Shown here piece by piece: positions 1-36,872 of a DNA stretch of 37,024 nt. The first letter of the stretch is position 1. Each line of letters begins with the position of its first letter. The notes below the pieces were generated by a model. It did not search any database. It had not been told where the DNA came from and saw only the letters and a program-made list of their open reading frames with translations. The position numbers and the translations under genes are program-made. This stretch comes from a virus: the IMG/VR virus record IMGVR_UViG_3300009285_004575, positions 1 through 37,024 of that record. The stretch is one strand, 5' to 3'.

Positions 1-174
1 CAATTATTTACAGAAGACTCAAGTAATCCTTTATTAAAAGATCATTCTTTAAAAGGTTCCTTACTTGGATTTAGATCATTTTCGATAACAGGTGATGTCA
101 GAATAATTTACAAAAAGGAAGGTGAAACTGTCAATCTTTTTGACATTGGTAGCCATAATCAAGTCTATAAATAA
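1..174 (+). CDS. RelE/YafQ-like toxin, C-terminal part (5' end outside window)
   Basis: An open frame runs in from the left edge and stops at TAA 172-174, giving 57 residues. The sequence contains LKGSLLGFRSFSITGDVRIIY and ends FDIGSHNQVYK. This matches the end of the RelE/ParE superfamily YafQ-type toxins: the LKG...G.RSF core, the D-RIIY strand carrying an Arg important in this family, and the terminal DIG-H-xVY motif. Such proteins are ribosome-dependent mRNA endonucleases paired with an antitoxin, usually encoded just upstream, which here would be off the window. The family call is from motif recognition. Whether this copy is an active toxin cannot be judged without the N-terminus. Confidence 0.75.
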   Translation, partial: QLFTEDSSNPLLKDHSLKGSLLGFRSFSITGDVRIIYKKEGETVNLFDIGSHNQVYK

Positions 175-323
175 TCTCAATTTTCTTTTATCAATAAAAG
201 ATATAAGAATGCACCTGCAAGCAACCCAAACCCCAAAAACTCCAAATATTGCGGCCAATAAAGAATAGTAATTGATGATTGACCGCTTATTTGCCATCCA
301 TTCGCCCAATTATTGATTAAAAC

Positions 324-1653: not shown

Positions 1654-1860
1654 ATGACAACAGACAATATAAATCATCCGCCACATTACAAATCAAACGG
1701 TATGGAAGCTATTGACGTGATAGAGGCGTTTGGTCTTGGATTTCATCTTGGTAATGCCATGAAATACATTCTTAGAGCTGGCAGAAAAACAGAAGACGAT
1801 ACGGAAGATACAAAAAAGGCTATTTGGTATTTAAATCGTTATTTAGGAGAAAAACAGTGA
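1654..1860 (+). CDS. DUF3310 phage protein
   Basis: The product has 68 residues. It carries the DUF3310 pattern seen in many phages: an N-terminal NHPPHYKSNGMEAIDVIEAF block, the G--GNAMKYILRAG core, and a KKAIWYLNRYL helix near the end. Members are short phage proteins sometimes annotated as nucleotide kinase-like, but that activity is not established for most. It lies directly upstream of thyX, whose GTG start overlaps its stop (1857-1860), so an association with nucleotide metabolism is a reasonable inference. Confidence 0.85.
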   Translation: MTTDNINHPPHYKSNGMEAIDVIEAFGLGFHLGNAMKYILRAGRKTEDDTEDTKKAIWYLNRYLGEKQ

Positions 1861-3395
1861 AAATAATTAAACCGTCAATTGAAATTTTAGACGTATTAGA
1901 CCAAACCACTATTTTGAAAAGATTGGAATTAGTTGGAAGGACTTGCTATAAATCAGAAGATAAAATAACCGATAATTCTTGTGTTGAGTTTATCAGAAAG
2001 ATTATTAAGTCTGGACACCATTCCATAATTGAACATTACGATATTTCGGTTAGAGTAATATGTGATAGGGGCGTTACCCACGAAATAGTTAGACATAGAA
2101 TAGCCAGCTATGCTCAGGAATCTACACGATATTGTATATCGGGAGACATGGGTTTATCTTTTAAAAATCCTCATCAAAAATTTACTGTGAGCCAACTTTA
2201 TAACAATCGAATTAACTCAAAAAATAATTCGTGGAAAAGAATGTTTATTAAACAACTTAACGAAGACACCGGATATATCACTTTTGACAAAATAAAAAAT
2301 ATTGTTTATACAGGATTTAAAGAGGTAGTAAAAATTACTACTTCTCTTGGGTATTCTCTTATTGTTACGCCAGATCATAGAATAAAAACCAGTTATGGAT
2401 ATGCAAGGGCAGACAGTTTAGCGGGAAGGGAGATAGCTGTAAATGGAATTGGAATTTGTACAACAAAACATGCCTACCAAGATAAAGATTGGCTTAAATA
2501 TCACTATATTGTGTTAAACAAAACAGCAGTACAAATTGCCAATGATTTAAAAGCTAGTACCTCTGCCGTTAAGAAATGGATAAGATTGCATGGCTTTGCG
2601 AATACTAAACCAAAAAGCTATTGGAATAAGGGAAGAAAACCCTGGAATAAAGGACTTACCGAAAGCAATGATATAAGAATCAAAAAACAAGGAGATGCCC
2701 TACGAAAATTCGGATATAGAAAAGGAGAAAAAAAAAGACAGAAAACAATATCTATAAGAACTTATCATAAAACCGTAAAAGATAAATGTGTTTTGTGTGG
2801 AGGTTGTTTATCCCTTCATGTTCACCACAAAAACAGCAACAGGATGGATAATTGTACTGACAATTTGATAACCTTATGCCCCTCTTGTCATGGGGGTGTC
2901 CATAATAAAAATCTATCATTTGTATATTTTGATAAAGTAGTATCCATAGAAAAATTGCCTAATACTATTCCTGTTTATGATATTGAGATGGGAGGGCAAT
3001 ATCATAATTTTGTAGCAAACGGTGTGGTTGTGCATAACTGTAATTATGCAAGCGGTAAATTTGGAAATGAAATCACTGTTATTGAACCTTGTTTTTGGAA
3101 TATAGATAACGATGAAAAGATGTTAGTATGGGAATTAGTCATAAAAGCCTCAGAAGCCGCATATCTCAAACTTATAGAACTTGGAGCAACTCCACAAGAA
3201 GCGAGGAGTGTGCTTCCAAATTCTTTGAAAACAGAAATAATTGTTAAATTCAATCTTCGAGAATGGAGACATTTCTTAACTTTGAGAACTTCTAGGGCTG
3301 CTCATCCACAAATGAGAGAAGTGACAAACATGATACTAACAGAGTTTAAATCAAAATTACCAATTATTTTTGAGGATATATCCAATGAAAATTAA
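1857..3395 (+). CDS. thyX: Flavin-dependent thymidylate synthase ThyX, interrupted by an HNH intein
   Basis: The start is GTG 1857, preceded by AGGAGA at 1845-1850; the frame gives 512 residues. Removing residues 93-394 leaves 210, a normal ThyX length. The extein carries the ThyX signature RHRIASYAQESTR (residues 79-91) and the later WRHFLTLRTS...AHPQMREV block. ThyX makes dTMP from dUMP using FAD, NADPH and methylenetetrahydrofolate. The intein sits right after the signature: the extein reads ESTRY then, after splicing, CNYASGKFGNE. The gene follows DUF3310 and its stop overlaps the ATPase gene start. Phages often carry thyX to make dTMP independently of the host. Confidence 0.93.
   Translation: MKIIKPSIEILDVLDQTTILKRLELVGRTCYKSEDKITDNSCVEFIRKIIKSGHHSIIEHYDISVRVICDRGVTHEIVRHRIASYAQESTRYCISGDMGLSFKNPHQKFTVSQLYNNRINSKNNSWKRMFIKQLNEDTGYITFDKIKNIVYTGFKEVVKITTSLGYSLIVTPDHRIKTSYGYARADSLAGREIAVNGIGICTTKHAYQDKDWLKYHYIVLNKTAVQIANDLKASTSAVKKWIRLHGFANTKPKSYWNKGRKPWNKGLTESNDIRIKKQGDALRKFGYRKGEKKRQKTISIRTYHKTVKDKCVLCGGCLSLHVHHKNSNRMDNCTDNLITLCPSCHGGVHNKNLSFVYFDKVVSIEKLPNTIPVYDIEMGGQYHNFVANGVVVHNCNYASGKFGNEITVIEPCFWNIDNDEKMLVWELVIKASEAAYLKLIELGATPQEARSVLPNSLKTEIIVKFNLREWRHFLTLRTSRAAHPQMREVTNMILTEFKSKLPIIFEDISNEN
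2133..3038 (+). mobile_element. Intein with HNH homing endonuclease in ThyX (302 aa)
   Basis: The intein begins with Cys (TGT 2133) and ends with His-Asn (CAT AAC 3033-3038), followed by Cys as the +1 residue. A splicing block B is visible as IVTPDHRIKTSYG, and block F as VYDIEMGGQYHNFVANG then VVVHN. All residues for class 1 splicing are present: Cys1, the block B Thr/His, penultimate His, terminal Asn and Cys+1. The inserted nuclease domain has paired Cys and HVHHKNSNRMDN followed by CPSCHGG, an HNH motif with a zinc-binding pair. A helix-turn-helix and NUMOD-like stretch (IANDLKASTSAVKKWI, then NKGRKPWNKGL) probably recognises DNA. Both splicing and homing look intact. Confidence 0.93.
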
Positions 3396-5640: not shown

Positions 5641-6264
5641 ATGATAGACCTTGAAAAATTTTGTAGAAAAAGTCATTATACAGGAACATTAAATGAACCG
5701 TTTAGCGATAATGACTATACTTATGCTTCTGATGGTTCTATAATAATCAGGGTTGATAAAATTCAAGAAATGACAGAGAAAGATACTCATTCTAATAAAG
5801 CAAAAGAACTGTTTGAAAAAAATAAAATTAATGGAAATGAAATATGGACTGATCTGCCTAAATTTGAAGTAATAGAAAAAAATTGTACCGAATGTGTTGG
5901 CACTGGCAAAATTATTATATGCAAAGAATGTAATAGCACTGGAAGTTTAGAATTTAGTAGCAATTATAACGATTATGATGTTGAGTGTAAGTCTTGTTTT
6001 GGTAAAGATATTAAAGATGAAAAATGCGAAGATTGTGACGGTACTGGCAAATATAAAGAATATTCAAATCCTGTTATAGAAGTTCCTATAAGAAAAGATG
6101 GAAATTTAGAACAAATCGAAATAATAATAAATGGTAAATATCTGGAAATGATACAAGACTTGCCGAACATCAAAATAGCATTGCAAGGTGAAAAAGAACT
6201 TATAAAATTAAAATTTGATGGCGGTATCGGATTGCCGATGCCGATAGAACGAGGAAAGCCTTAA
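5641..6264 (+). CDS. Phage protein with DnaJ-type zinc-finger repeats
   Basis: The product has 207 residues, with AAGGAGAGA about 12 bases upstream. The N-terminal part (PFSDNDYTYASDGSIIIRV) matches a recurring phage protein that then carries a DnaJ-like cysteine-rich region. Four CxxCxGxG-type repeats are visible: CTECVGTGK, CKECNSTGS, CKSCFGKDI (degenerate) and CEDCDGTGK. That is enough to bind two zinc ions. There is no J domain, so it is not a DnaJ co-chaperone. The C-terminal part is beta-rich. Function is unknown. The stop overlaps the radical SAM start. Confidence 0.7.
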   Translation: MIDLEKFCRKSHYTGTLNEPFSDNDYTYASDGSIIIRVDKIQEMTEKDTHSNKAKELFEKNKINGNEIWTDLPKFEVIEKNCTECVGTGKIIICKECNSTGSLEFSSNYNDYDVECKSCFGKDIKDEKCEDCDGTGKYKEYSNPVIEVPIRKDGNLEQIEIIINGKYLEMIQDLPNIKIALQGEKELIKLKFDGGIGLPMPIERGKP

Positions 6265-7256
6265 TGCTTCCAAACAAAAATAACTTTTGTGGTGGTAATT
6301 TCTTCGATTGGATCGAAGTAATGCTCATTGATAAATGTAATGGGACTTGTTCGTGGTGTATAGAAAACGAAGGATATAAACCGAAAAAAGTAGCAACGTG
6401 GCAGAAATTACTCGAAAAATTAATACAATCAAATAAAAAAAATATCATATTTCTTGGCGGAGAACCAACACTTTATAAAGACCTTCGGCTCTTGATTACA
6501 AATTTATATTTAGTAAATAAAAATACATACATTACTACAAATGGTAGTTTGTTATGTGCAGAATATATAGAAAATAATCTGCCTGGATTGACTGGAATTA
6601 ACATATCTATTCATCATTATCATTTAGGTATGAACAAACAAATAACTGGCATAAAATTAGAAGAATATCTGTTTCGTAGTGCAATTAGCAAAGCAAAAGA
6701 ATTAAATATAAAAGTACGATTAAATTGTAATGTCATTAAAAAATATATAGACAACGAAAATGAAGTTAATAAGTATATAGAATTTGCCAAAAATATTGGC
6801 GCAAATAATGTGCGATTCGCAGAATTAAAACACGATGATAAAAATTTTATAGATATGGCTGAAATATTAAATTATAAATACGGATTAAACGATGATCCTT
6901 TTTCCAATGGATGTATCAGAGATGTTGTAATAAATAACATGCCAATAAATTTTAGACAAATGTGTGGTCTACAAACAACGAAAAGAATTGTTCCAGAAAA
7001 TCCTGAGCAAATTAGTAAAAAAGTATTATATTATGATGGTAACTTTTACAATGGTTGGCAAGCCGAAAAAGAGGAAGATATGAAAAAAACAAAAAAAGAA
7101 ACAAAAGCGGTTAAAGATTTTACTGAAACTGACAAATTATTAAGAGAATTGAAAAATGGGAAAATTACATTAAAAGAAGCAAAAATAAAGATGAATGTCA
7201 TTCTTGAAGAAACAGAGAAAATTGCTGTGGCTGCTTCCGGTGGATGTAATTACTAA
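6264..7256 (+). CDS. Radical SAM protein with unusual C-terminal tail
   Basis: The product has 330 residues. The [4Fe-4S] motif is CNGTCSWC (CxxxCxxC, residues about 25-32), followed by FLGGEPTL for SAM contact, ITTNGS and a TIM-barrel-like pattern of strands. Towards the end come FRQMCGLQTTKR and KVLYYDGNFYNGW, which look like the usual end of phage members. About 65 residues follow that I do not expect in the family: a charged helical region starting at an internal Met (ATG 7081) and ending AVAASGGCNY. The substrate cannot be named. It is not QueE-like, because the cysteine spacing is standard rather than the QueE CX14CX2C form. Confidence 0.8.
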   Translation: MLPNKNNFCGGNFFDWIEVMLIDKCNGTCSWCIENEGYKPKKVATWQKLLEKLIQSNKKNIIFLGGEPTLYKDLRLLITNLYLVNKNTYITTNGSLLCAEYIENNLPGLTGINISIHHYHLGMNKQITGIKLEEYLFRSAISKAKELNIKVRLNCNVIKKYIDNENEVNKYIEFAKNIGANNVRFAELKHDDKNFIDMAEILNYKYGLNDDPFSNGCIRDVVINNMPINFRQMCGLQTTKRIVPENPEQISKKVLYYDGNFYNGWQAEKEEDMKKTKKETKAVKDFTETDKLLRELKNGKITLKEAKIKMNVILEETEKIAVAASGGCNY

Positions 7257-11501: not shown

Positions 11502-13439
11502 ATGAATTACGATAATTTTCTTACTCATAAAAAACAGCAAGGATCTAATCATGGATTTGATCCTACATTTGTTCCAGATTATTTGTTTGATTTTCAAAAA
11601 AGTTTGGTTGAATGGGCTGTAAATAAGGGTCGTAGTGCTATATTTTCTGATTGCGGCACAGGAAAAACTATTATGGAGCTTGTGTGGGCATACAACATAG
11701 TAAGAAAAACAAACAAAAATGTATTGATATTATCACCGCTGGCCGTCTCTTGGCAAACCGCAAAAGAAGCGGAAAAATTTGGAATTGAATGTAAGGTATC
11801 AAGGGATGGTAAAATTAACAGCAAAATAACAATTACCAATTATGAACAATTACATAAGTTTGAACCGTCTGATTTTGTCGGTATTGTATGTGATGAGAGT
11901 GGAATATTAAAATCGTTTAAAGGTGCATTAAGAAAAGAAATAACAATATTCATGCGTAAAATTGAATATAGATTATTAGCTACGGCAACGCCAGCTCCGA
12001 ACGATTATATTGAATTGGGAACTTCGTCTGAAGCCTTGGGATATCTAGGTGCAATGGATATGTTAAATAAATTTTTCAAAAACGATCAACACAATAGCAA
12101 AGTGGGAAGATATAGAGGACAAGAAGTTAAATGGAGATTGAAAGGTCATGCAGAATTACCTTTTTGGAGATGGATATGTTCTTGGGCTAAAGCAATGAGA
12201 AAACCATCTGATTTAGGTTTTGACGATAATGGATTTATATTGCCAGAATTAATAATTAATCAAACCGTTGTAAAATCTAATAGTCTTCCTAAGGGTAAAT
12301 TATTTTCTATGCCAGCGATAACACTACAAGAACAAAGAGAAGAAAGAAGAAGAACTATAATGGAAAGATGTGAGATGGTCGCCAGCAAGGTCAATACTGG
12401 TAAACAAGCATTGGTTTGGTGTCATTTAAACGACGAAGGAGACTTGTTAGAAGCACTTATTCCTAATTCAATACAAGTAAAAGGGTCTGATTCTGTTGAA
12501 TGGAAAGAAGCAGCGGCTGAATGGTTCGTTGGAAATAAATGTATTTGCAATGATAATATGTTTCGTGCTAAACTTTTAGCATGGAAAAGAGAAAAACAAA
12601 TCTTGAATACCATCGCCGATACTATCAAGAACATCGAGAGGAACGATTGCGTCAATCCATCGAATACCAGCGAGCACATAAAGTTGAACGAAAATCTTAT
12701 CTATCAGAATATTACAAACACAACAGGGGGAAATGGGTGCGGACACAAAAACAAAAGGATGAAAGAAATAGAAGACGACGAGAGCGATATGCAAATGACG
12801 AAAAATTTCGTCTCGCTAAAATTGAAGAATCAAAAGAAACAAGAAGAAAAAACCCAGACACTCGGCTCAAATATTGTCTTAAAAAATATGGTGTGTCCAT
12901 CGAAGAATATCGAAAACTTGAATCAAAAGGATGCGCAATCTGCGGAAGAAAAGAAAACGGAGATATTCGAGGACACCGATTCCACATCGATCACTCCCAC
13001 GATACTGGAAAATTCAGAGGGGTACTGTGTACAGGATGCAATCAAGGACTCGGAAAGTTTGGTGACGACCCTAAACGGCTCGAAAATGCCGCCATGTATC
13101 TGCGGGCATAAGACAGGACGTCGCATCCTCATAAGCAAGCCTGTCATGTTTGGGTATGGCTTAAATTTCCAATGCTGTAATTATATGGTTTTATTCCCTT
13201 CCCATAGTTACGAACAATATTATCAAGTAATCCGCCGGTGTTGGCGTTTCGGACAAAAAAATCCAGTAACAGTAGATATTATAACAACGGAAGGGGAGTC
13301 AAGAATTATAAACAATTTACAAAGAAAATCTAAACAAGCTGATGAAATGTTTGAAAGATTAATTAGCGAAATGAATCATGTGTTAAATATAAATCGAATG
13401 GAAGAATATTCACAAAAAATAATACTTCCTAATTTCTAA
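11502..13439 (+). CDS. SNF2-type DNA helicase (phage), with in-frame insertion
   Basis: The product has 645 residues. Helicase motifs are visible: Walker A SDCGTGKT (49-56), motif II DESG (131-134), motif III LLATATP (158-164), and the C-terminal block LISKPVMFGYGLNFQ followed by EQYYQVIRRCWRFGQ (motif VI, about 572-584). SNF2-like phage helicases translocate on DNA and are thought to act in replication or recombination. Residues about 347-531 are not helicase-like: they are the read-through of a 555-bp insertion that encodes an HNH endonuclease in another frame. The insertion keeps the helicase frame open and is bounded by TGTATTTGC (12540-12548) and TGTATCTGC (13095-13103). There is no Shine-Dalgarno site before ATG 11502. 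Activity with the 185-residue insert is uncertain. Confidence 0.82.
   Translation: MNYDNFLTHKKQQGSNHGFDPTFVPDYLFDFQKSLVEWAVNKGRSAIFSDCGTGKTIMELVWAYNIVRKTNKNVLILSPLAVSWQTAKEAEKFGIECKVSRDGKINSKITITNYEQLHKFEPSDFVGIVCDESGILKSFKGALRKEITIFMRKIEYRLLATATPAPNDYIELGTSSEALGYLGAMDMLNKFFKNDQHNSKVGRYRGQEVKWRLKGHAELPFWRWICSWAKAMRKPSDLGFDDNGFILPELIINQTVVKSNSLPKGKLFSMPAITLQEQREERRRTIMERCEMVASKVNTGKQALVWCHLNDEGDLLEALIPNSIQVKGSDSVEWKEAAAEWFVGNKCICNDNMFRAKLLAWKREKQILNTIADTIKNIERNDCVNPSNTSEHIKLNENLIYQNITNTTGGNGCGHKNKRMKEIEDDESDMQMTKNFVSLKLKNQKKQEEKTQTLGSNIVLKNMVCPSKNIENLNQKDAQSAEEKKTEIFEDTDSTSITPTILENSEGYCVQDAIKDSESLVTTLNGSKMPPCICGHKTGRRILISKPVMFGYGLNFQCCNYMVLFPSHSYEQYYQVIRRCWRFGQKNPVTVDIITTEGESRIINNLQRKSKQADEMFERLISEMNHVLNINRMEEYSQKIILPNF
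12581..13111 (+). CDS. HNH/endonuclease VII-like homing endonuclease nested in helicase gene
   Basis: The product has 176 residues, in a different frame from the helicase and wholly inside it. The N-terminal two thirds are very basic and helical (HREERLRQSIEY; KDERNRRRRERY). The C-terminal domain reads CAICGRKENGD (C118, C121), FHIDHSHDTGKFRGVLC (D137, H138, C150), then CNQGLGKFGDDPKRLENA, the endonuclease VII/HNH fold with its zinc ribbon. Free-standing members cut DNA and spread by homing. No ribosome site is obvious at ATG 12581, so expression level is unknown. The stop lies eight bases past the right boundary repeat, so the last codons overlap conserved helicase sequence. Confidence 0.85.
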   Translation: MEKRKTNLEYHRRYYQEHREERLRQSIEYQRAHKVERKSYLSEYYKHNRGKWVRTQKQKDERNRRRRERYANDEKFRLAKIEESKETRRKNPDTRLKYCLKKYGVSIEEYRKLESKGCAICGRKENGDIRGHRFHIDHSHDTGKFRGVLCTGCNQGLGKFGDDPKRLENAAMYLRA

Positions 13440-14476: not shown

Positions 14477-17182
14477 ATGGAAATCTCGAACAAAATCCCA
14501 TTTTCTAATCCTAAATTTAAAAAAGGATTAACACCGCTACAGCACAAAACCGTCACGGACGTGCTATCAAGCAGAAAAACAATAACGATGATTAATGCTC
14601 CCACCGGATTCGGGAAGACTCCGACAGCTATGACCCTTGCCCACCATATAAACTACCCGAACCAATCTCTATATCTTTGTAGTTCTAAAATTTTACAAGA
14701 TCAATTGGCTGGGGATTTTACAGAAGCGTATCAATTAAAAGGGCGGGGAAATTATCCGTGCACACTTCTACCCACCTATAATGCAGACCGATGCTTCCAA
14801 CAATGCGATGAATATAAGTGCGGTGAAATTTCATGCGCTTATGAAGATGCGAAAAAAGAAGCCTTATCATCAACTTTTACCATTCTCAACATGCACTATT
14901 ACGAGACCGAAACGAATTTTGTCGGTAGATTTTCAAAGCGTAAAACCGTAATAATTGACGAGGCAGATGTATTAGAAGATATTTTGATAGATTTTATCGC
15001 ACTAGACGTCCATCCGAAAACATTGGAAAAATTCAAGCTGGATCAGCCCAAATATGTGACTAAGTTAGATTCATGGAAGGAATGGGCGGATAAAACATTA
15101 AAAATATTAGAAGAAAAAGTTAAAAAGCTAAGAGCCGCCGAAGACCACTTGGATAGAGAATCAAAATTAGAACTAAGTAAATTGTTGAGAATGTGTCTGA
15201 AATTAAATATGCTAAAAAACGATATAACGGAAGAGTGGATATTCGACCATGCCGAAAAATTTCGCTTTCAACCTCTCTGGCTAGACACAAAACTTACCCA
15301 ACAATATTTACTCAAACATGCGGAAAGATTCGTTATGATGTCTGCGACCATGCTCCCGAAAGTTATAGCGTGTAAATTATTGGGATTAGATATTAACGAT
15401 GTGGATTATCACGAGATAGATTCACCTATACCCGTAGCGAATCGTCCCATTGTTTATAAGCCAATTAAAAAGCTAAAATACGGTGAATCAGAAGAAGATG
15501 TTTATAATGAAATTAAAAGATTGATAGAAGGGTACAAAGGAATTAAAGGGATTATTCATGCTGTGAGCTATACCCGTGCAAAGGCAATAGCAGGACTGGA
15601 CAAGCGTTGCATCACTCATAATACCTACGATAAAAACGAAAAAATAAAACAATTCATAGACTCAAAAGATGGGATATTGGTAAGCCCATCGTGTGATCGT
15701 GGACTTGACCTGCACGGCGATCTAGCAAGATTCTGTATAATTCCAAAAGTTCCGTTCCCGAACACAACGGACAAGGTGGTCTCCAAGCGTTTGTACAGCT
15801 CTCCCTTTGGTAGGGTATGGTACAGGGCTGTAACGGCGCAAACCATTGTTCAGATGGCGGGGCGTACTACTCGATGTTTTAGCACAGACACAGAAATCTT
15901 AACGATACATGGATGGAAAAAATACAACGAAGTAAATATGCACGATAAAACTTATTGTATTGATCAGAAATCTTTTAACAATAAAACTAAACGTCCAGTT
16001 ATGGAGGGTTCTTCGATATTAGTAGAAGGAGAAATAGAGGATGTCTATACATCAGATAAAGAAGAAAAAGTTATTAATATTAAAAATCAAAACATTGATG
16101 CTTTAGTTACTCAAGACCACGACATGATTGTTCAAATGAGAAAACAGAAAACTTATAGGGGGAAGTATAAAAAACCTTATGGAGTTTATGATTGGAAATA
16201 CTGTCATCGTACAAATAGTCATGGATTAGAAAAAATAAAAGCATCTAAATTACCAGACAGATTTAAAATACCACTAGCAGGAAAAATTATACGCAAAAAC
16301 AAATCTCGTGCTAAAAAAGAATGGTTCTGGCTGATAGGTTTCATAATAGGGGATGGACATATTCATAAAAACAAAAACGTCGTAACAATACATCAATCGG
16401 AAACCAACATAGACTTAATAGAAAAAATCAGAAAAGTTCTTGGTATACTTAAAATAGAATATTCAGAATACAGACGACAAGTAAAAGGAACAAAAATAAA
16501 TTTAAACGATAAGGAGTATTCAAGAAAAGAAGATATGATAAATTTTCAAATAACGGGTAAGTCTTCTTCGATGATTAGGGATATGTTTAATAATGGCAAA
16601 AGAAGAAGGTATTCAAAAACAGTAACATACGTACAAAGAACTCACTTTTCTTTTAGTAAAAAAATAGGGGGAAAGCATAAAATAGATGGGTGGAAAGAAG
16701 TGGAAAAAATCATACCAAGATGGTGTCTGGAGAAGGGGTCGAAATCCCAACTTATTAAATTAATTCATGGTTTGGTTGACAGCGACGGAAGCTGGAAAAA
16801 AACTAATGGTAAATATAATAAAAACGTTGGAGGTTTTTACAACAAAAATAAAATCATAATAGATGCTTTTCAGGAGTTGTGCGTATTGACAGGATATAGA
16901 AGTTTGATTCGTAACAGAAGGAATCAATACGAAGTTTCCTTTTGTTGTCCCTCCATGATTGACTGTACGAAAAATAATGATGTAAAAGACGGAGGGATGT
17001 CTAAGGTGTGGTGTGTTAAAACAAATCATGGAAATGTTATAATGAGGAGAAATGGTAAACCTTTTTTGTGTGGAAACAGTGCCAGCGACTTTTCCACTGT
17101 TCATATACTGGACGCTGCTTTTGATTCGGTCGTAGAATTTGTCCCGAAATGGTTTCGAGATGCAATCAAGGTTGAATTTTAG
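14477..17182 (+). CDS. XPD/DinG-like helicase interrupted by a LAGLIDADG intein
   Basis: The frame gives 901 residues; without the intein the helicase has 500. Walker A is APTGFGKT (41-48) and motif II is DEAD (161-164). Between them lie C95, C106, C110, C115 and C120, placed where XPD-family enzymes hold a [4Fe-4S] cluster. Motif III is MMSAT and motif VI is QMAGRTTR, where the intein is inserted. Such helicases unwind DNA 5' to 3' and are common in phages beside SNF2-like proteins. It starts two bases after the methyltransferase stop. Helicase activity requires splicing, because motif VI is separated from the C-terminal 34 residues. Confidence 0.88.
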   Translation: MEISNKIPFSNPKFKKGLTPLQHKTVTDVLSSRKTITMINAPTGFGKTPTAMTLAHHINYPNQSLYLCSSKILQDQLAGDFTEAYQLKGRGNYPCTLLPTYNADRCFQQCDEYKCGEISCAYEDAKKEALSSTFTILNMHYYETETNFVGRFSKRKTVIIDEADVLEDILIDFIALDVHPKTLEKFKLDQPKYVTKLDSWKEWADKTLKILEEKVKKLRAAEDHLDRESKLELSKLLRMCLKLNMLKNDITEEWIFDHAEKFRFQPLWLDTKLTQQYLLKHAERFVMMSATMLPKVIACKLLGLDINDVDYHEIDSPIPVANRPIVYKPIKKLKYGESEEDVYNEIKRLIEGYKGIKGIIHAVSYTRAKAIAGLDKRCITHNTYDKNEKIKQFIDSKDGILVSPSCDRGLDLHGDLARFCIIPKVPFPNTTDKVVSKRLYSSPFGRVWYRAVTAQTIVQMAGRTTRCFSTDTEILTIHGWKKYNEVNMHDKTYCIDQKSFNNKTKRPVMEGSSILVEGEIEDVYTSDKEEKVINIKNQNIDALVTQDHDMIVQMRKQKTYRGKYKKPYGVYDWKYCHRTNSHGLEKIKASKLPDRFKIPLAGKIIRKNKSRAKKEWFWLIGFIIGDGHIHKNKNVVTIHQSETNIDLIEKIRKVLGILKIEYSEYRRQVKGTKINLNDKEYSRKEDMINFQITGKSSSMIRDMFNNGKRRRYSKTVTYVQRTHFSFSKKIGGKHKIDGWKEVEKIIPRWCLEKGSKSQLIKLIHGLVDSDGSWKKTNGKYNKNVGGFYNKNKIIIDAFQELCVLTGYRSLIRNRRNQYEVSFCCPSMIDCTKNNDVKDGGMSKVWCVKTNHGNVIMRRNGKPFLCGNSASDFSTVHILDAAFDSVVEFVPKWFRDAIKVEF
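15875..17077 (+). mobile_element. Intein with LAGLIDADG homing endonuclease in the XPD-like helicase (401 aa)
   Basis: The intein starts with Cys (TGT 15875, residue 467: CFSTDTEILTIHGWKK) and ends GKPFLCGN, followed by Ser as the +1 residue. Block B is present as NIDALVTQDHDMIV. The endonuclease motifs are LIGFIIGDG and LIHGLVDSDG, the paired LAGLIDADG helices. The penultimate residue is Gly, not His, a known variant that can still splice. It interrupts the extein between QMAGRTTR and SASDFSTVHILDAAF, inside helicase motif VI, a conserved site typical for inteins. Confidence 0.93.
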
Positions 17183-27269: not shown

Positions 27270-27887
27270 ATGAAGATAGGTAAAAAAGCGAAAGAAATGT
27301 TTAAAATTTTGGGGATTATTGGACTGTCTGCTTGTTTATTCGTTGGTAATCCATGTAAGGCTGCCGATATTACCCGTGCTACAATTAATATGCAAGACCC
27401 TAACGATCCGATGCGAATTGCCGACACGGATGCTTTTTACGTAGTTGATGTGTCTACGACAGGAACGAATACTACAAATAGTCATGTCGTCAAATTAAAC
27501 AACATTGATGCGGTATTGCTACAACTTTCTGTAGCAGATATAACGGTTGGTTCGGTTAGTTTTAGTCTTGAACAATCACTCGATGGTGTTACGTATGGTT
27601 CGGTAACTGCTTCTCAGATGATAAAACTAACAGACACTCTCACGACTAGCACTGAATTTGGTTCTGATACTGTGGTATATTTTGCTGGTGATTATTTCGG
27701 TACTCATACAGTAACTTTTGGTACTACCACTGTTTACGGTTCTACAAGCGCAACAAATATTCATAGTTTTTACGCTGTCAGAACTATGGGTGATCGTTTA
27801 AGAATTGGTTGTAACCATGTATTGACCGGTACTGATACTGGTACTTACAAAGTTGTAATTAAGAAAAGTACAAAAGGTAAACTCTAA
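27270..27887 (+). CDS. Secreted beta-rich protein, probably virion-associated
   Basis: The product has 205 residues with GGAGAGG upstream. The N-terminus is basic, then ILGIIGLSACLFVGNPCKA forms a Sec signal peptide with likely cleavage after KAA. The mature chain is rich in Thr, Val, Gly and Ser with many predicted strands (VSFSLEQSLDGVTYGSVTA), and ends DTGTYKVVIKKS. This composition is typical of beta-sandwich surface proteins. It is the first gene of the structural module. Confidence 0.6.
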   Translation: MKIGKKAKEMFKILGIIGLSACLFVGNPCKAADITRATINMQDPNDPMRIADTDAFYVVDVSTTGTNTTNSHVVKLNNIDAVLLQLSVADITVGSVSFSLEQSLDGVTYGSVTASQMIKLTDTLTTSTEFGSDTVVYFAGDYFGTHTVTFGTTTVYGSTSATNIHSFYAVRTMGDRLRIGCNHVLTGTDTGTYKVVIKKSTKGKL

Positions 27888-27936: not shown

Positions 27937-28515
27937 ATGTTAAAAATCATTAGAAACAAAAATGTAAAATATATCCATACCGAAAATATTAAATATGTCA
28001 TAGAAAATGCTGAGGGATATTTGGTTTGTATCTCTACGGGCAAAGAGCAGGTAAAAAAGGATGAATTTGATCTTGAAAAATCAAAATTGAAAAAGTGCGG
28101 AGATACTCATTACAACACTGATTATGTTTGCGATGTAGAAGTAGTAAAGGATCGTACCGCATTTGTCGTTTCGACCAATAATGAAACTGGCAAAAGATTT
28201 ATCGCTACGGGCGATTTGAAAAATTTGATCGATGGTTTCTACGAAGTAAATCGTAACGATGGTACTTCCGTATACATAAATCCTGACAATGTTCATGTTG
28301 TGGAGAAGCCATACATTACAGTAACGGCAAAGATAATGAATAATGGCGTTATTACAGAAGTTCCAATCGAAGCCGGTGATCAAGTTACGAGTTGTACCGT
28401 AACGGCTGTTGGTGGCAAGAAGTTTAAATTCGATGCGCAAGAAGCGGTACAACTATTATCTTACTATAAAGAAGAAGCAGTTCCGGCTAAAAAGAAAACA
28501 CCGCCTCCTGCATAA
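27937..28515 (+). CDS. Hypothetical structural-module protein (192 aa)
   Basis: Start ATG 27937, with GGAG upstream. The N-terminal part is beta-rich (KYIHTENIKYVIENAEGYLV). A middle segment (VSTNNETGKRFIATGDLKNL) is followed by two strands (YITVTAKIMNNGVITEV) and a proline- and lysine-rich tail VPAKKKTPPPA. No enzyme motif. Its stop overlaps the next gene start by one base. Its place within the module suggests a minor virion protein. Confidence 0.5.
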   Translation: MLKIIRNKNVKYIHTENIKYVIENAEGYLVCISTGKEQVKKDEFDLEKSKLKKCGDTHYNTDYVCDVEVVKDRTAFVVSTNNETGKRFIATGDLKNLIDGFYEVNRNDGTSVYINPDNVHVVEKPYITVTAKIMNNGVITEVPIEAGDQVTSCTVTAVGGKKFKFDAQEAVQLLSYYKEEAVPAKKKTPPPA

Positions 28516-29591
28516 TGAATAATAAGCAACTGGTCGCCAAATTATTAGAGGAGCAAAGTTCAGGAAGCGACAGAGACAATGATGTTGTGATTGGAAAGAT
28601 GAGGGCTGTGACTGGTAATTTATTCAAGCGATATAATGTACCTGAATTTGATTATCAGTCTGAACTTGAAACTTTGAGCCATGCGCTTTCAGATGAAGAT
28701 AATTACATAAAGGCTAGAAATCTTGTCGGTAAGTCGGTTGATTTTACAGATGATGATAGGGTTGACAGACCAGTAATTATCGGTGCTTTTGCTCTTGCGC
28801 TTGGAAATAATATTCGGATCGGTGGTAATATTGATAATCCTTTTATTGTTCAATATATAGAAAAGGATTTCGCCGCTAAAAGCGGTATATCAAATTTTGA
28901 AATGGTTGATGGCTTGGGGTCTTGGGTAGTTGTTGGAAAATCAAGTAGTTATTGGGATGGATATGGTGGGATAGACGTAGAAAAACAGATTAATCTTAAT
29001 CGTACTTCTAACGCTAATCGAGAAGAAATACATAGCGGGTCAAAAGGCATAGAAACAACTGCTAAAAAAATGAAAAGTATTACTCAGCAGTATTTGAGTG
29101 ATGATTATTTTGCAAATGATAGAAAATTGTTACACGGTTGGGCAAGAAATGTATTAAGAGAAAAGGGTGTATCGAATCGGGGAAATTACATGAAAGTGTT
29201 TGCAGACAAATTAACTGATAAAAATGTTGTACGATACATGAAAGACCCTCTTTATCTAAAACATGAAAGGATTGATAGTCGTGAATGGTTGCAAGTTCCT
29301 GGAAGAATTCTCGATTATGGCATAGGAGATTGTGACGATCTCTCATTGTGTATTGGGCTATTGGCTGGACTGTCTGGATTGGGATTAACGTATAGAGTTG
29401 CGGGGTGTGCGCCGAAAAAACCAAAGGCGTATTCACACGTTTATGATATTATACATTACGGAAATAGTGGCGGCGTTGATGGGTTTACAGGCTCAAAAGA
29501 CGTAGTGATTGATATAGTTTATCAAAAAAGAGGTGGGACTTTTGGAAAAGAACCTAAAAAGTTTAAGTTTTTCGATACAAGAGTGTTATAA
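28515..29591 (+). CDS. Transglutaminase-like protein
   Basis: The product has 358 residues. The C-terminal domain contains GDCDDLSLCIGLLAGLSGLG (Cys273 as the likely nucleophile) and KAYSHVYDII (His308), followed by VVIDIVY; this is the Cys-His pattern of transglutaminase/cysteine-protease folds. Phage members with GDCDDL are often linked to virion maturation or peptide cross-linking. The N-terminal 230 residues are unknown and contain a helical region. The enzymatic role (protease or cross-linker) cannot be decided from sequence alone. Confidence 0.6.
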   Translation: MNNKQLVAKLLEEQSSGSDRDNDVVIGKMRAVTGNLFKRYNVPEFDYQSELETLSHALSDEDNYIKARNLVGKSVDFTDDDRVDRPVIIGAFALALGNNIRIGGNIDNPFIVQYIEKDFAAKSGISNFEMVDGLGSWVVVGKSSSYWDGYGGIDVEKQINLNRTSNANREEIHSGSKGIETTAKKMKSITQQYLSDDYFANDRKLLHGWARNVLREKGVSNRGNYMKVFADKLTDKNVVRYMKDPLYLKHERIDSREWLQVPGRILDYGIGDCDDLSLCIGLLAGLSGLGLTYRVAGCAPKKPKAYSHVYDIIHYGNSGGVDGFTGSKDVVIDIVYQKRGGTFGKEPKKFKFFDTRVL

Positions 29592-31553: not shown

Positions 31554-31835
31554 ATGGCAAGTATTGAAGCTGGCAGTAAACAAATAAGTGAAGGGTTGAA
31601 AAAAGGTACAGATATTTTAACGAATCTTTTCGATTCAGTAAAAAAAATAGTTCCTGACAGTGGCTATTCCGCTTCTAAACCTATAAAGAGTGGTGAGACG
31701 GTCGAGATACGAGCTGGCGAGAAAAGCACAAAAAGCTCTGGTGGTTTTTTGGAAAAAATTATGAATAAAAAAGTTCTCGTTCCGATATTGGTGATTGCTG
31801 GAATTTATTTTGGTCTTAAAAAATTAACAAGATAA
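31554..31835 (+). CDS. Small protein with C-terminal membrane anchor
   Basis: The product has 93 residues. A hydrophobic segment VLVPILVIAGIYFGL lies near the C-terminus, preceded by Lys and followed by KKLTR, so it is a single-span tail anchor. The N-terminal part is helical (GSKQISEGLKKGTDILTNLF). Membrane-anchored minor virion proteins are found in internal-membrane phages, but the assignment is inference. Confidence 0.5.
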   Translation: MASIEAGSKQISEGLKKGTDILTNLFDSVKKIVPDSGYSASKPIKSGETVEIRAGEKSTKSSGGFLEKIMNKKVLVPILVIAGIYFGLKKLTR

Positions 31836-32110: not shown

Positions 32111-33421
32111 ATGCCTCAGTTAACGGTATTGAGCGGTGTTGGCTGCCCTCCGAGAAGAGGAACGATACGATTGAGAGAAAGATTGAGATCGAGATCGAAA
32201 CTAAGGACAAGATCAAAAAGATTATTATTAAGATCAAAAAGAAAAAAAAGAAGAAACAGTAGACTGGGTCTTGGTTTTTTCAAGTGTGCTACAAAAAGTA
32301 GAAATGTCGATCCTTCTTCTCATCGTCATTTAAGTAAGTCTATGATTAGTCGTCATCACAGAATCAATAGCATAATGAAACGGTTCAAGGTAAAGAAACT
32401 GAAATTTAAAGCTACTACGAAAAGAAAAAAAAGAGCAAAGAAGAGGAAAATTATTAGTCACGTAAGTTCTATTGGAAATCTTTATGGGGGTGTAATGAGT
32501 ATGCGGAAACGAAGGAAGACTAAAAGGTCGAAGGGGAGAACGTTGGCACGAAGGGCTGGTGTTCGCAGAGGGAAATGTAAAAAGGTTGGAAAAAGGAGAG
32601 TTTGTAGGACTCGAAGGGGGAAAGGACATATTCGTAAAGATACGAAAGGACGTAAACATAACTCAACTGGTAAATTTTCAATGAGAGGTATCGGGGGTGT
32701 CGGCGGGTTCGGATTAGCTAATGTTGGTGCGTTCAGGGCTGATTCTTGCGCTCACAGAGTTTCTAGGGCTGGTTACGGTGGTTGGAGAAAGAAAAGGAGA
32801 CATAGTAAAAGAAGGTCGAGAGGTCTTTTCGGATTAGGAAATATTGGAATATCAATGCCGAAGGTAAGCTCAATCACATCCATGCTACCATCGTTAAACA
32901 TTAACAGTTTGAAGAAATACGGTGCGGTTGTTTCCGGTATGACCACACCTTTGTTATTGCAACGCTTCCTGCCTAAGAATTTGACATTTGGCTGGAAAGG
33001 GCTTTTAACATATTTGGGTCTTGGCGGTGTAACGATAATGGTTAGCAAGAAAGTACCGTTTATGAAATCTAATTCTGACGAAATAGCGGTCGGTGTTGGT
33101 GCTGGATTTATCTTTAAGATTTTCCAAGACGTTATATTCAAGAGGTCGTTATTTCCGGCACAGAGTATCAAGGGTATAGCATATTTGGACGGTGTTGATG
33201 CTTGTACAAACTGTTCAAACGTTGGTGATTGCAGCGATGTTGGCAGGTGTTTGGGTTATTCCGATGATGAAATTGGTGAGATAGGCGATTATGACGATGT
33301 TGATGGCTTGGAAGATTATGATGACGTTGACGGAATAGGTGACGATGATAATGATGAGGTTGGTGCTTACGCTTCATATGATTATGACAGTCGTGGCGAA
33401 GAAGAAGGAGATGATGATTAA
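32111..33421 (+). CDS. Large Arg/Lys-rich protein with acidic C-terminus
   Basis: The product has 436 residues with AAGGAG upstream. The first 190 residues are extremely basic (RLRERLRSRSKLRTRSKRL). Residues about 240-355 hold a helical or membrane-like domain (LGLGGVTIMVSKKVPFM; VGVGAGFIFKIFQDVIF). The C-terminal 70 residues are acidic with a repeated DYDDVDG. The shape is that of a DNA-binding or internal virion protein with a membrane-associated part. The acidic tail may neutralise the basic arm during assembly. Not assigned to a family. Confidence 0.6.
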   Translation: MPQLTVLSGVGCPPRRGTIRLRERLRSRSKLRTRSKRLLLRSKRKKRRNSRLGLGFFKCATKSRNVDPSSHRHLSKSMISRHHRINSIMKRFKVKKLKFKATTKRKKRAKKRKIISHVSSIGNLYGGVMSMRKRRKTKRSKGRTLARRAGVRRGKCKKVGKRRVCRTRRGKGHIRKDTKGRKHNSTGKFSMRGIGGVGGFGLANVGAFRADSCAHRVSRAGYGGWRKKRRHSKRRSRGLFGLGNIGISMPKVSSITSMLPSLNINSLKKYGAVVSGMTTPLLLQRFLPKNLTFGWKGLLTYLGLGGVTIMVSKKVPFMKSNSDEIAVGVGAGFIFKIFQDVIFKRSLFPAQSIKGIAYLDGVDACTNCSNVGDCSDVGRCLGYSDDEIGEIGDYDDVDGLEDYDDVDGIGDDDNDEVGAYASYDYDSRGEEEGDDD

Positions 33422-33620: not shown

Positions 33621-34535
33621 ATGTTAGATGATTATGAAGAAATCAGTGATGATATGGAAGATTATGATGATTTGCTCGGTGATTTGAGCGATGATGAAGC
33701 AGAAGATGTCGGGGCGTTTATGGTGATGGACGGGTACGAACTTGATGGAATTATTGGCGATATTGGAGCTTCCCCTCGTAAGAAGAAGCTTGCCAGAGCA
33801 GCTAAGAGAATCAAGGTCAAGGCGAAGAGAAGGGGTGTACCTTCCAAAAAATTGTATCGAAAAGCGAAGCAAAGGAAAAGGGCTAAAAAGGCTGGGAAAA
33901 AGATGAAGTCGTTTGGTGGAAAGAGTATGGTTTGTGGTGTTCAAGCTCCTTGCGCCGGACTGTTGCCGAAGAACGAGCCTGTCTATGATACGGAAAGACT
34001 GAGTGCGACACAGGCCGCTGGCGACGTAACGTTCTTTGCAATACCGGAAGGACAGAGTTCGAGCGTATCCGGTTCAGCCATAACCAAATCGAAATATCAT
34101 ACCAACATGACTGCGGTCAAGATGTTGCCTGTGCCGCAAAGATTCGATGTGTTTGGTCTTTCTTGGTGTATGGATAGCGCTACCGTTGCAGCCGTAAATG
34201 ACATAAGAAATAAGTGTGCTGTTCAATTTTATATCGGCAATACTCCTTATGCAACATTAAGACTTTCGTTGATACCGTTTTATAGTTCTGTTAATGCCGC
34301 TTTTGACGGTACTAATGGTGCAGTTCCTAACGTTGCTTGGTGTACAGGCCCCAAAGAGATGTATGATCTGAGGACTTTCGATCTTGACAGTGGTGTTTTG
34401 ATTCCGCAAAGAATTGCATTGCAGGAAAATTTCAGCGTTATTCTGAAGATTGACTCTGCGCTTAATATGAGTGCGGCTAAAGATGTTTGTTTCACGTTGC
34501 ATGGTATTAAGTGGACAGAGATTCGTCAGGGTTAA
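33621..34535 (+). CDS. Putative capsid-type protein with acidic/basic N-terminal arm
   Basis: The product has 304 residues with AGGAG upstream. The N-terminus is first very acidic (DDYEEISDDMEDYDDLLGDL), then basic (KKKLARAAKRIKVKAKRRG), and from about residue 110 becomes a beta-rich domain. That domain has GDVTFFAIPEGQSS, TKSKYHTNMTAVKMLPVPQR, DVFGLSW, and ends DVCFTLHGIKWTEI. The pattern of N-terminal arm plus jelly-roll-like body, with the PxPQRFDVxG motif, recalls capsid proteins I have seen in uncultured tailless phages. The fold is inferred. It is the strongest candidate for a major virion protein in the window. Confidence 0.55.
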   Translation: MLDDYEEISDDMEDYDDLLGDLSDDEAEDVGAFMVMDGYELDGIIGDIGASPRKKKLARAAKRIKVKAKRRGVPSKKLYRKAKQRKRAKKAGKKMKSFGGKSMVCGVQAPCAGLLPKNEPVYDTERLSATQAAGDVTFFAIPEGQSSSVSGSAITKSKYHTNMTAVKMLPVPQRFDVFGLSWCMDSATVAAVNDIRNKCAVQFYIGNTPYATLRLSLIPFYSSVNAAFDGTNGAVPNVAWCTGPKEMYDLRTFDLDSGVLIPQRIALQENFSVILKIDSALNMSAAKDVCFTLHGIKWTEIRQG

Positions 34536-34583
34536 TCGTTGTAATTGTTGAGTTGTATCGTTCTTTTTATGTTTATTGTTATT

Positions 34584-34626
34584 AATAGGTGTGGGGTTAA
34601 GCAAAAAATCTCACACCTATTTTTTT
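34584..34626 (+). terminator. Intrinsic terminator after the capsid-like gene
   Basis: AATAGGTGTGGG (34584-34595) pairs with CTCACACCTATT (34610-34621), with one G-U, and T's continue to 34626. The loop is GTTAAGCAAAAAAT. A strong stem with U-tract, partly ending transcription after the most likely major virion gene. Confidence 0.85.
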
Positions 34627-34657
34627 AGAAATTTTCTCAAAAAGGTGGATAAAACCT

Positions 34658-35443
34658 ATGATGACAAGAGATAAAGTAAAGGAATATTTGTACAAAATCG
34701 GTGCAAATAGAAGCTGGAGCGTACTTCCGCATTCATCTATTTCGACCGTTGCCAACGGTGCTGGTTCAGTCGTTATTGTTACTCCGTCACGTTATGATTT
34801 TCTAGTAAAAGCCATATCGGGCAGAAGTACAGGATCATACCTGTTAAACTTTCTGGGCAGTGGGAAATCTGAACTACTCAGTAATAAACCACTTCACAAT
34901 TCTACCGTTATCGGCACTGGCAATCTTCCCTATCCGTTACCTTTTCCTATTATACTAAGAAGGAGCGGTAGCTTTGTAGTAGACGTTTCCGATCTTTCCG
35001 GTGCTGCTAATACTATTGAGATTCAGCTTCACGGAATAGCTCTTTATCAAGAAAAAGATACGGAATCGCTCATACAAAAATATTTAGGAATGATTCCTTA
35101 TTTTTATACTACGGATTCTACCTTTGCGCTTACCACTGCCGATGCTACTAAAAATATTTCGCTTGTTAATAGTCATGATTTTTTATGGACTCAGTGGACA
35201 TATACAGATACAAACGCAACCACAACTATTGATATTAAATTACAAGCTACGGACGGAAGGACGTTGCATCCACCAGACTTGTATATAGATTTACAAGCAG
35301 TTACAGGTGGCGCACAATATCCGAAGAAGTTGGAGCATCCAACACCACTATACGGAGGTAATACCTTTAGCGTTACGGCGAGAGATACGGCTGGTGCAAA
35401 TACGCTATATCTTACTTTTGGTGGAATAGCATTGTATAAATAG
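34658..35443 (+). CDS. Two-domain beta-sandwich protein (possible capsid/minor virion)
   Basis: The product has 261 residues. It has two similar halves. The first ends NTIEIQLHGIALYQ (about residue 130); the second begins FYTTDSTFALTTADATKNIS and ends NTLYLTFGGIALYK. Each half is a series of strands with a shared final G-I-A-L-Y motif, which points to an internal duplication of a beta-sandwich domain. The second half matches a recurrent phage protein with DFLWTQWTY and DGRTLHPPDL. Two tandem jelly-rolls would be expected for a double jelly-roll capsid protein, but each half is only about 120 residues. Confidence 0.55.
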   Translation: MMTRDKVKEYLYKIGANRSWSVLPHSSISTVANGAGSVVIVTPSRYDFLVKAISGRSTGSYLLNFLGSGKSELLSNKPLHNSTVIGTGNLPYPLPFPIILRRSGSFVVDVSDLSGAANTIEIQLHGIALYQEKDTESLIQKYLGMIPYFYTTDSTFALTTADATKNISLVNSHDFLWTQWTYTDTNATTTIDIKLQATDGRTLHPPDLYIDLQAVTGGAQYPKKLEHPTPLYGGNTFSVTARDTAGANTLYLTFGGIALYK

Positions 35444-35444
35444 T

Positions 35445-35561
35445 ATGGATAAAAATCTTCTTAAAAAATCAGGCACAGTAGCGGTAATAATTATTTTCTG
35501 TCTAGTCGTTGGATGGTTCGGTATCGAACTTTCAGAAATATTGTATTGGAGGGTAGATTGA
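35445..35561 (+). CDS. Small membrane protein (38 aa)
   Basis: ATG 35445 lies one base after the previous stop. The product MDKNLLKKSGTVAVIIIFCL then VVGWFGIELSEILYWRVD has one clear membrane span. A very small virion or membrane protein is plausible. The next gene begins three bases later, at ATG 35564. Confidence 0.4.
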   Translation: MDKNLLKKSGTVAVIIIFCLVVGWFGIELSEILYWRVD

Positions 35562-35563
35562 TC

Positions 35564-36145
35564 ATGAATAAATGTTTAAAACTTAAAAGCACACGGCATG
35601 ATTTTTTTAATTTACCGGAAAACAAAATTCCGATAAATGAGTATGAAAAAGAAGTAGCTCTATCTAAAACTGAATTGTATAAAGTTTTCGACATGGTGTT
35701 GAGAAAGAATGCGAAAACATTCACATCAAGAGAAAGCATATTTCTGGCGAATCAGCGTACATTTATTCAAACATCTGGCAAAATAACCGTTCCTATAGCT
35801 GTTGGCAGTGTTTATGGAACAGCAACAGTAATAGATTATACTTTGCCATTGAGGAGTGAAGGGTTTGTACATGAGTTCGGTATTGGATATGTGACTCCGA
35901 ACGGACAAGAAAAAATATTACTAAATTTCCTAGTCAATGATAAGATTGAACCAGGACTGTCCCAGCAAAGGTTTACTGAGTCTTTTGATACGCCACGACC
36001 TATAAAAATTCCACTGCCATCGAATAGTACCAATCTTAAAGTTATTGCATATAATATTGATGATGTAGCGCCATACGAAATCAAGGTTACAATGGTTGGA
36101 TACTGGCAATATTTAGAATCTGATAAAGACCAACTAATCAAATAA
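35564..36145 (+). CDS. Beta-rich structural protein
   Basis: ATG 35564 is preferred (193 residues), with GGAGGG upstream. The N-terminal 60 residues are helical and charged. The rest is a beta domain: KITVPIAVGSVYGTATVIDY, VHEFGIGYVTPNGQEKILLN, and an ending with YEIKVTMVGYWQYLES. The last strand repeats the G-x-x-x-Y signature of its neighbours. It is a likely member of the same beta-sandwich family. Confidence 0.5.
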   Translation: MNKCLKLKSTRHDFFNLPENKIPINEYEKEVALSKTELYKVFDMVLRKNAKTFTSRESIFLANQRTFIQTSGKITVPIAVGSVYGTATVIDYTLPLRSEGFVHEFGIGYVTPNGQEKILLNFLVNDKIEPGLSQQRFTESFDTPRPIKIPLPSNSTNLKVIAYNIDDVAPYEIKVTMVGYWQYLESDKDQLIK

Positions 36146-36146
36146 C

Positions 36147-36872
36147 ATGAAAAAATATAAATTCTTATCATATTTTTTTTTGTTTGTATCGTTCTTTGGG
36201 TTAATTCATGGTGTAAATGCTGAAATTGCTAAAACATTACTAGGCACAACCACGACCAATCCGACCGGAACATATACGTCCGCGCCAAAACCAACGACCG
36301 GTTATACCTGGTTTCGCGGACATATCATAACGGATGGTAGTAATGGGGCAGAAAATCAACCTACTGGATATATTGAACAATCGCTCAATCCATCAGCGCC
36401 ATTGAGTTATCACGGTACGAACACGATTACTTTTTCGAGGTCGGGACAGCTTTGGACAGGTTCGATAAATTCTGCAATTATTGGACAATATGCAAGGCTG
36501 GTAATTGGTAATTTTGGCGATGCCTCGTTATTGGCTATTAACTGGTTCGTAACACCAGAAACGTCTGTCAGCACTACGTTAAATCTTACTACGACCCCAA
36601 TTGCTTCGGGTACAGTGAAAACGGTAGGAATGTCAAGCATAACATTGATAGAAGCTAATACGAGTCGAAAGTATATACTAATAATTAATACGGGTAATCA
36701 AGATTTGTACGTAGACCCTGATAGTCCTGCTGATTCTAATACTGCACGCATATTCATTTCTGGTGGTAATGGTTCGTATGAAAAAGAAAGCATGGCATCT
36801 ATTTATACCGGTGCATTTTATTGCATAACGGCTACGGGAACAACAGAAGTGAGGGTATTTGAAAATAATTAA
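36147..36872 (+). CDS. Secreted beta-rich structural/receptor protein
   Basis: The product has 241 residues. MKKYKFLSYFFLFVSFFG then LIHGVNA is a Sec signal peptide. The mature protein is Thr/Ser/Asn-rich and beta-like. Its second half, ANTSRKYILIINTGNQDLYV then GGNGSYEKESMASIYTGAFY and GTTEVRVFENN, is a typical phage surface beta-sandwich. Possible spike, capsid or receptor-binding protein. The export signal is unusual for a virion protein of a tailed phage. Confidence 0.55.
   Translation: MKKYKFLSYFFLFVSFFGLIHGVNAEIAKTLLGTTTTNPTGTYTSAPKPTTGYTWFRGHIITDGSNGAENQPTGYIEQSLNPSAPLSYHGTNTITFSRSGQLWTGSINSAIIGQYARLVIGNFGDASLLAINWFVTPETSVSTTLNLTTTPIASGTVKTVGMSSITLIEANTSRKYILIINTGNQDLYVDPDSPADSNTARIFISGGNGSYEKESMASIYTGAFYCITATGTTEVRVFENN

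Follow-up and report, generated by a model that had tools for sequence, protein, structure and literature searches.

The paired barrels of double jelly-roll capsids are believed to have arisen when a single barrel was duplicated. Whether such a duplication can be read from sequence, and what the encoded proteins would do in a virion, are questions raised by three adjacent genes of an unclassified virus of microbes that is apparently tailless. The window analysed here is the 37,024 bases of virus record IMGVR_UViG_3300009285_004575. The same virus is also present as the 78,468-base IMG/VR contig IMGVR_UViG_3300025117_000058, with zero mismatches across the 18.5 kb compared at the window's right end. 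The contig stops within its last ORF, which encodes a signal peptide and leads into a 'FIVPSGITTVYV' segment; a Gly-rich frame, such as usually comes after a segment of this kind, is already open where the contig begins. A circular genome of ~78.5 kb is the simplest reading; no terminal overlap was found in the contig. Window positions 1–310 are absent from the 78-kb contig, and the sequence past 310 matches wherever compared. This segment looks like the terminal part of a RelE/YafQ-like toxin gene, so that it may mark an integration junction, a difference between strains or a chimera.

Genes are referred to by their start positions in the window. Genes 33621, 34658 and 35564 lie consecutively and head to tail, the middle one encoding 261 aa. 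The features of the cluster are as follows.

33621..34535, plus strand: gene 33621, 304 aa, with ribosome-binding site AGGAG and the C-terminal signature described below.
34584..34621, plus strand: terminator-like hairpin of the intrinsic type, strong, 15 bp, between 33621 and 34658.
34658..35053, plus strand: N-half of 34658, predicted by AlphaFold2 as a short helix and an eight-stranded sandwich with jelly-roll neighbours; repeats the C-half and ends in IQLHGIALY.
35051..35443, plus strand: C-half of 34658, 26–29% identical to the N-half (BLASTP E 6e-6), ending in LTFGGIALYK.
35564..36145, plus strand: gene 35564, 193 aa, an N-terminal part and ~130 aa predicted to be beta-rich, ending in VTMVGYWQY.

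The longest ORF of the third gene begins at 35513, but the Shine-Dalgarno-like GGAGGG precedes 35564 only, so that 35564 is preferred, which backs the start chosen earlier.

The original prediction drew attention to similar protein ends, and all four quoted are present: VCFTLHGIKW in 33621, IEIQLHGIALY and LYLTFGGIALY in the N- and C-halves of 34658, and IKVTMVGYWQY in 35564. We expressed this signature as h.h.h.Gh(0-2)[WYF], that is, three alternating hydrophobic residues, any residue, Gly, a hydrophobic residue, at most two further residues and an aromatic one, required within the last 30 residues. It occurs in 3 of the 143 plus-strand ORFs (≥60 aa) of the 78-kb contig, exactly the three genes above, and only in the same three among 252 proteins from 49 viral stretches (this virus among them), while 0.4% of shuffled tails match; the pattern was composed after the sequences had been viewed, and these figures bound its rarity rather than making a strict test. 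Gene 34658 carries the signature twice, at residues 120–130 and 250–260.

The two halves of 34658 (~131 and 130 aa) align at 26–29% identity along their entire length, including an N-terminal helix-like segment. Their local alignment score is 64, which none of 1000 shuffles reached (mean 26.8, sd 4.6), and BLASTP between them gives E = 6e-6. The internal duplication proposed at the outset is thus upheld, and 34658 is by its sequence a true tandem duplication, a well-supported conclusion. When the same split test was applied to known double jelly-roll capsid proteins, PM2 P2 gave p of about 0.035–0.04, so that the similarity of its V1 and V2 domains is at most marginal, and no half–half signal was found in FLiP, PRD1 P3 or STIV B345, in contrast to the clear signal in 34658. 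Because the known examples tested have little or no barrel–barrel sequence similarity, barrel duplication in them is inferred from structure.

The duplication does not extend visibly to the flanking genes. Pairwise alignment, profile–profile comparison and an HMM of the halves all gave non-significant results for 33621 and 35564 against the halves of 34658. Hence, of the earlier proposal that one fold family expanded by duplication, the part inside 34658 stands, while significant pairwise or profile similarity across the four domains, through which 33621 and 35564 would have joined the family, was not found. This result would agree with three beta-sandwiches of unrelated origin, in which the last strands converged on one pattern and duplication is confined to 34658. 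We consider such an origin improbable, as these three consecutive genes alone carry the signature among the 143, and none of about 250 other viral proteins does.

The fold of the repeat was modeled with AlphaFold2. With the C-half as the sole other row, the N-half yielded one helix and eight strands (pLDDT 72.3, pTM 0.65), and the C-half would share this fold by its homology to the N-half. Full-length 34658 without relatives gave a failed model (pLDDT 39.5), in which the N-half portion has mostly jelly-roll-type neighbours, with XepA at Z 7.4. In the PDB, Foldseek placed the repeat closest to the trimeric cement protein 7dou (E 1.8e-3, TM 0.50), the other top matches being tail-fibre and turret proteins and other sandwiches. 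VIA-align gave PHM as the best match (Z 8.0, 113 aligned, rmsd 5.3), then the HFTV1 turret (Z 7.9), the satellite virus coats of SPMV (Z 7.3, 107 aligned, 3.0 Å) and STMV (Z 7.3), the SPV1 capsid (Z 6.8, 125 aligned, rmsd 4.1 Å), the BMV and CCMV coats (Z about 6.8) and YomS (Z 6.4), and also matched nucleoplasmins, with all Z-scores at or below about 8, a level that the tool describes as frequent when a model has no clear match. Because the scores lie in this range, we restrict the claim to fold class, not family: with medium confidence, the repeat is predicted to be a jelly-roll-type sandwich. The beta-sandwich assignment made earlier is therefore borne out for the 34658 repeat at the level of an eight-stranded model that, among solved structures, comes closest mainly to jelly-rolls. 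Viral double jelly-roll capsid chains (PM2, FLiP, PhiCjT23, PRD1, STIV) are not among the top 50 fold matches, an absence that is no evidence.

How jelly-roll capsids originated has been discussed with reference to three of the matched proteins, PHM, SPV1 and XepA; PHM is listed there among cellular double jelly-rolls, and SPV1 among viruses with a single-jelly-roll capsid (Krupovic et al. 2022, PMC8812541). PHM, the best VIA match, shares with the proposed 34658 fold the double jelly-roll (PMC8812541), but it is an enzyme and its Z of 8.0 is not above the common level. The capsid protein of SPV1 (Portogloboviridae) aligns with the repeat model over 125 residues, but differs in having a single barrel, an archaeal host and no sequence similarity. 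The best Foldseek match, 7dou, is the cement protein of Helicobacter phage KHP40 and decorates a tailed-phage head, whereas such head genes are unrecognised here.

On the leading interpretation, 34658 consists of two tandem copies of one jelly-roll of ~130 residues, each after a short helix, and would form a compact double jelly-roll capsomer. Trimers of such a protein would bring six barrels together in a tile of pseudo-hexagonal outline, like those of PM2 and PhiCjT23, while 33621, with a basic arm and one domain, and 35564 would serve as single-domain shell, penton or inner-layer proteins. We put the probability that 34658 is a double jelly-roll capsomer at roughly 40%. The known capsid proteins of PhiCjT23 (239 aa, 126 + 113) and PM2 (269 aa) (PMC9719478) bracket 34658 in length, consist likewise of two domains of ~130 aa and belong to viruses with circular genomes. 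PM2 also has small membrane proteins encoded nearby, as with the hydrophobic-segment genes adjoining the cluster here. Furthermore, PM2 P2 ends in IIVEYMGVW, a strand, Gly and aromatic ending like that of 34658, and is the sole signature-bearing ORF among the reference viruses tested; this sharing is a lead from sequence, not proof. On the other hand, 34658 has no significant sequence match to the PM2 or FLiP capsid proteins.

Counted in favour of the capsomer are the duplication, the repeat model built from two sequences, the jelly-roll neighbours, the length, the PM2 P2 signature, the lack of recognised tailed-phage or ATPase genes, and neighbours with hydrophobic segments and basic or acidic tracts. 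Counted against it are Z-scores of at most about 8 with cement, turret, tail-fibre and XepA/YomS proteins scoring equally well, the full-length pLDDT of 39.5, the fact that 33621 rather than 34658 stands out in GC and GC3, the small size of known genomes (roughly 7–18 kb), and the lack of any homologue in the collections searched that would show conservation. The idea that a double jelly-roll could be born here from single ones is thus sustained as far as the duplication, the jelly-roll-like repeat and the size range of the smallest such capsids are concerned; a capsomer role for 34658 is suggested by the genome context.

A different division of labour, with 34658 as an accessory protein of XepA-like or cement/spike-like type and 33621 as the major capsid protein, is a tentative possibility to be taken seriously. 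The tandem jelly-rolls would then form stacked oligomeric discs or a vertex or surface knob. XepA is a 279-aa prophage protein of two jelly-roll sandwiches that assembles into a dumbbell pentamer (PMC6834076). Its tandem domains and the single domain of YomS are jelly-rolls of ~110–130 aa, like the repeat, and the match to both (Z 7.4 and 6.4) is at fold level only. The cement protein 7dou at the top of the Foldseek list points the same way. XepA differs, however, in its pentameric dumbbell, its ~30-residue interdomain linker, which 34658 lacks, and its place in a lysis cassette, and a PDB sequence search found no sequence match of 34658 to XepA or YomS.

The other side of this alternative concerns 33621. 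Its product has an acidic stretch at ~aa 1–50, a Lys/Arg-rich arm at ~52–100 and a predicted beta-rich part of ~195 aa ending in FTLHGIKW, and by analogy its basic arm and single domain resemble those of single jelly-roll coat proteins. Its GC (0.439) and GC3 (0.41) are the highest among the genes tested, and the hairpin terminator lies directly 3′ of it. Of 6 hairpin matches in 11 kb, a total that equals chance, only this one and one other have a 15-bp stem. Gene 34658 does not stand out by its preference for C-ending codons. The high GC and GC3 of 33621 together with the terminator would be in keeping with strong expression, as of a capsid gene, although both are weak proxies for expression. 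Gene 33621 is thus a candidate for a single jelly-roll shell or major capsid protein, and an equal rival to 34658 for the latter role. Acidic and Lys/Arg-rich tracts are strongly segregated in 33621 (acidic then basic N-terminus) and 32111 (acidic C-terminal tail), and also in 29947 and 30830; such tracts resemble scaffold or genome-condensing arms.

The neighbourhood of the cluster includes the following genes.

28515..29591, plus strand: 358 aa, with motif GDCDDLS...YSHVYD as in transglutaminase/cysteine-peptidase folds.
31554..31835, plus strand: 93 aa, with a hydrophobic segment at the C-terminus.
32111..33421, plus strand: 436 aa, Arg/Lys-rich, with one hydrophobic segment and an acidic tail; adjoins the cluster.
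36147..36872, plus strand: signal-peptide-bearing, beta-rich protein.

The product of 32111 is likely a DNA- or membrane-associated virion protein, and that of 31554 likely a membrane protein of the virion module. The 28515 protein has no Pfam or PHROG family match, and its GDCDD motif returned only this virus in a scan of IMG/VR; judging by the motif, it is a possible maturation or lysis enzyme. Gene 36147 and contig positions 1220–2083 are paralogues (BLASTP E 3e-20). Further signal-peptide-bearing beta-rich proteins are encoded at window 27270–27887 and at 2101–3237 of contig piece L005. Such proteins would be unusual in a virion and are perhaps exported spikes or cell-surface proteins.

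Pfam and PHROGs searches with the larger proteins of the 78-kb contig recognised no terminase, portal, tape measure, tail or HK97 genes, a result that highly divergent versions could escape. The terminase, portal, HK97 capsid and tail genes that mark Caudoviricetes are thus not seen on this contig. No candidate for an FtsK/HerA-like packaging ATPase was present among Walker-A ORFs or family matches, so that the usual partner gene of double jelly-roll viruses is not found either. Such an ATPase is absent in the FLiP and Odin groups and not required for FLiP-like viruses (PMC5894146). Helvetiavirae have two adjacent single jelly-roll major capsid genes and a packaging ATPase; adjacent signature genes are present here, and no ATPase was found.

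With all recognised capsid and packaging genes missing from the element, and with signal-peptide proteins encoded by the flanking 36147 and at contig 1220, the three proteins might have no place in a virion and instead be secreted or cell-surface-acting beta-sandwiches, for example in lysis or binding, of a plasmid-like element. This seems very unlikely, because no signal peptide was seen by inspection in 33621, 34658 or 35564, IMG/VR classes the record as viral, and recombination genes of phage type are present together with enzymes resembling those of lysis (3D domain, C92 peptidase). The products of the three genes are most likely jelly-roll-like proteins in the shell or on the surface of a tailless virus of prokaryotes; we infer the virion role, the oligomer and the choice between 33621 and 34658 as major capsid protein.

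Elsewhere on the element, a ThyX gene is split by an intein with an HNH-like motif at window 1824–3395 (Thy1 8e-44; intein splicing domain 1e-15), and a helicase gene at 14477–17182 is broken up by an insert that is intein-like and carries a LAGLIDADG homing-endonuclease domain. At 12581–13111, an ORF in another frame within the region of a 645-aa helicase gene looks like a complete HNH endonuclease, and is possibly an inserted homing gene disrupting the helicase frame. A radical SAM enzyme is encoded in the early region (6264–7256), a virus-borne AbiEii toxin with an adjoining AbiEi-like partner at L005 10064–11292, and an SPFH/Band-7 (HflC-like) membrane protein at L006 13762–14652 (E 5e-31). 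The closest relatives of TnpB come from Bacillota, Chloroflexota, Poribacteria and, in one case, a thaumarchaeon, and because of this scatter no host is claimed.

Relatives were sought in several collections. IMG/VR searched with 34658, 33621, 28515, 35513, the two-half alignment and the 36147 paralogues returned only this virus, a GTDB scan with 34658 gave no relative, and phage and plasmid collections gave no relatives of the cluster proteins. A degenerate C-terminal DNA motif scan picked out 49 stretches, none convincing except this virus itself; the best others encode Gly-rich 1,460-aa proteins, with scores inflated by motif selection.

Among the double jelly-roll viruses so far known from prokaryotes, genome size is roughly 7–18 kb (PMC5894146), that of PM2 being about 10 kb against about 78.5 kb here. 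That this is a double jelly-roll virus several times larger than the known prokaryotic ones, and that its double barrel arose late or independently from a single one, is on the unlikely side. As a protein of capsid size with jelly-roll-like halves at 26–29% identity, 34658 would offer a directly testable example of barrel duplication. If it is a capsid protein, the proposed birth of the double barrel would still be visible in sequence, the range of prokaryotic double jelly-roll viruses would extend from roughly 7–18 kb to about 78 kb, and the architecture would occur at that size apparently without a packaging ATPase.
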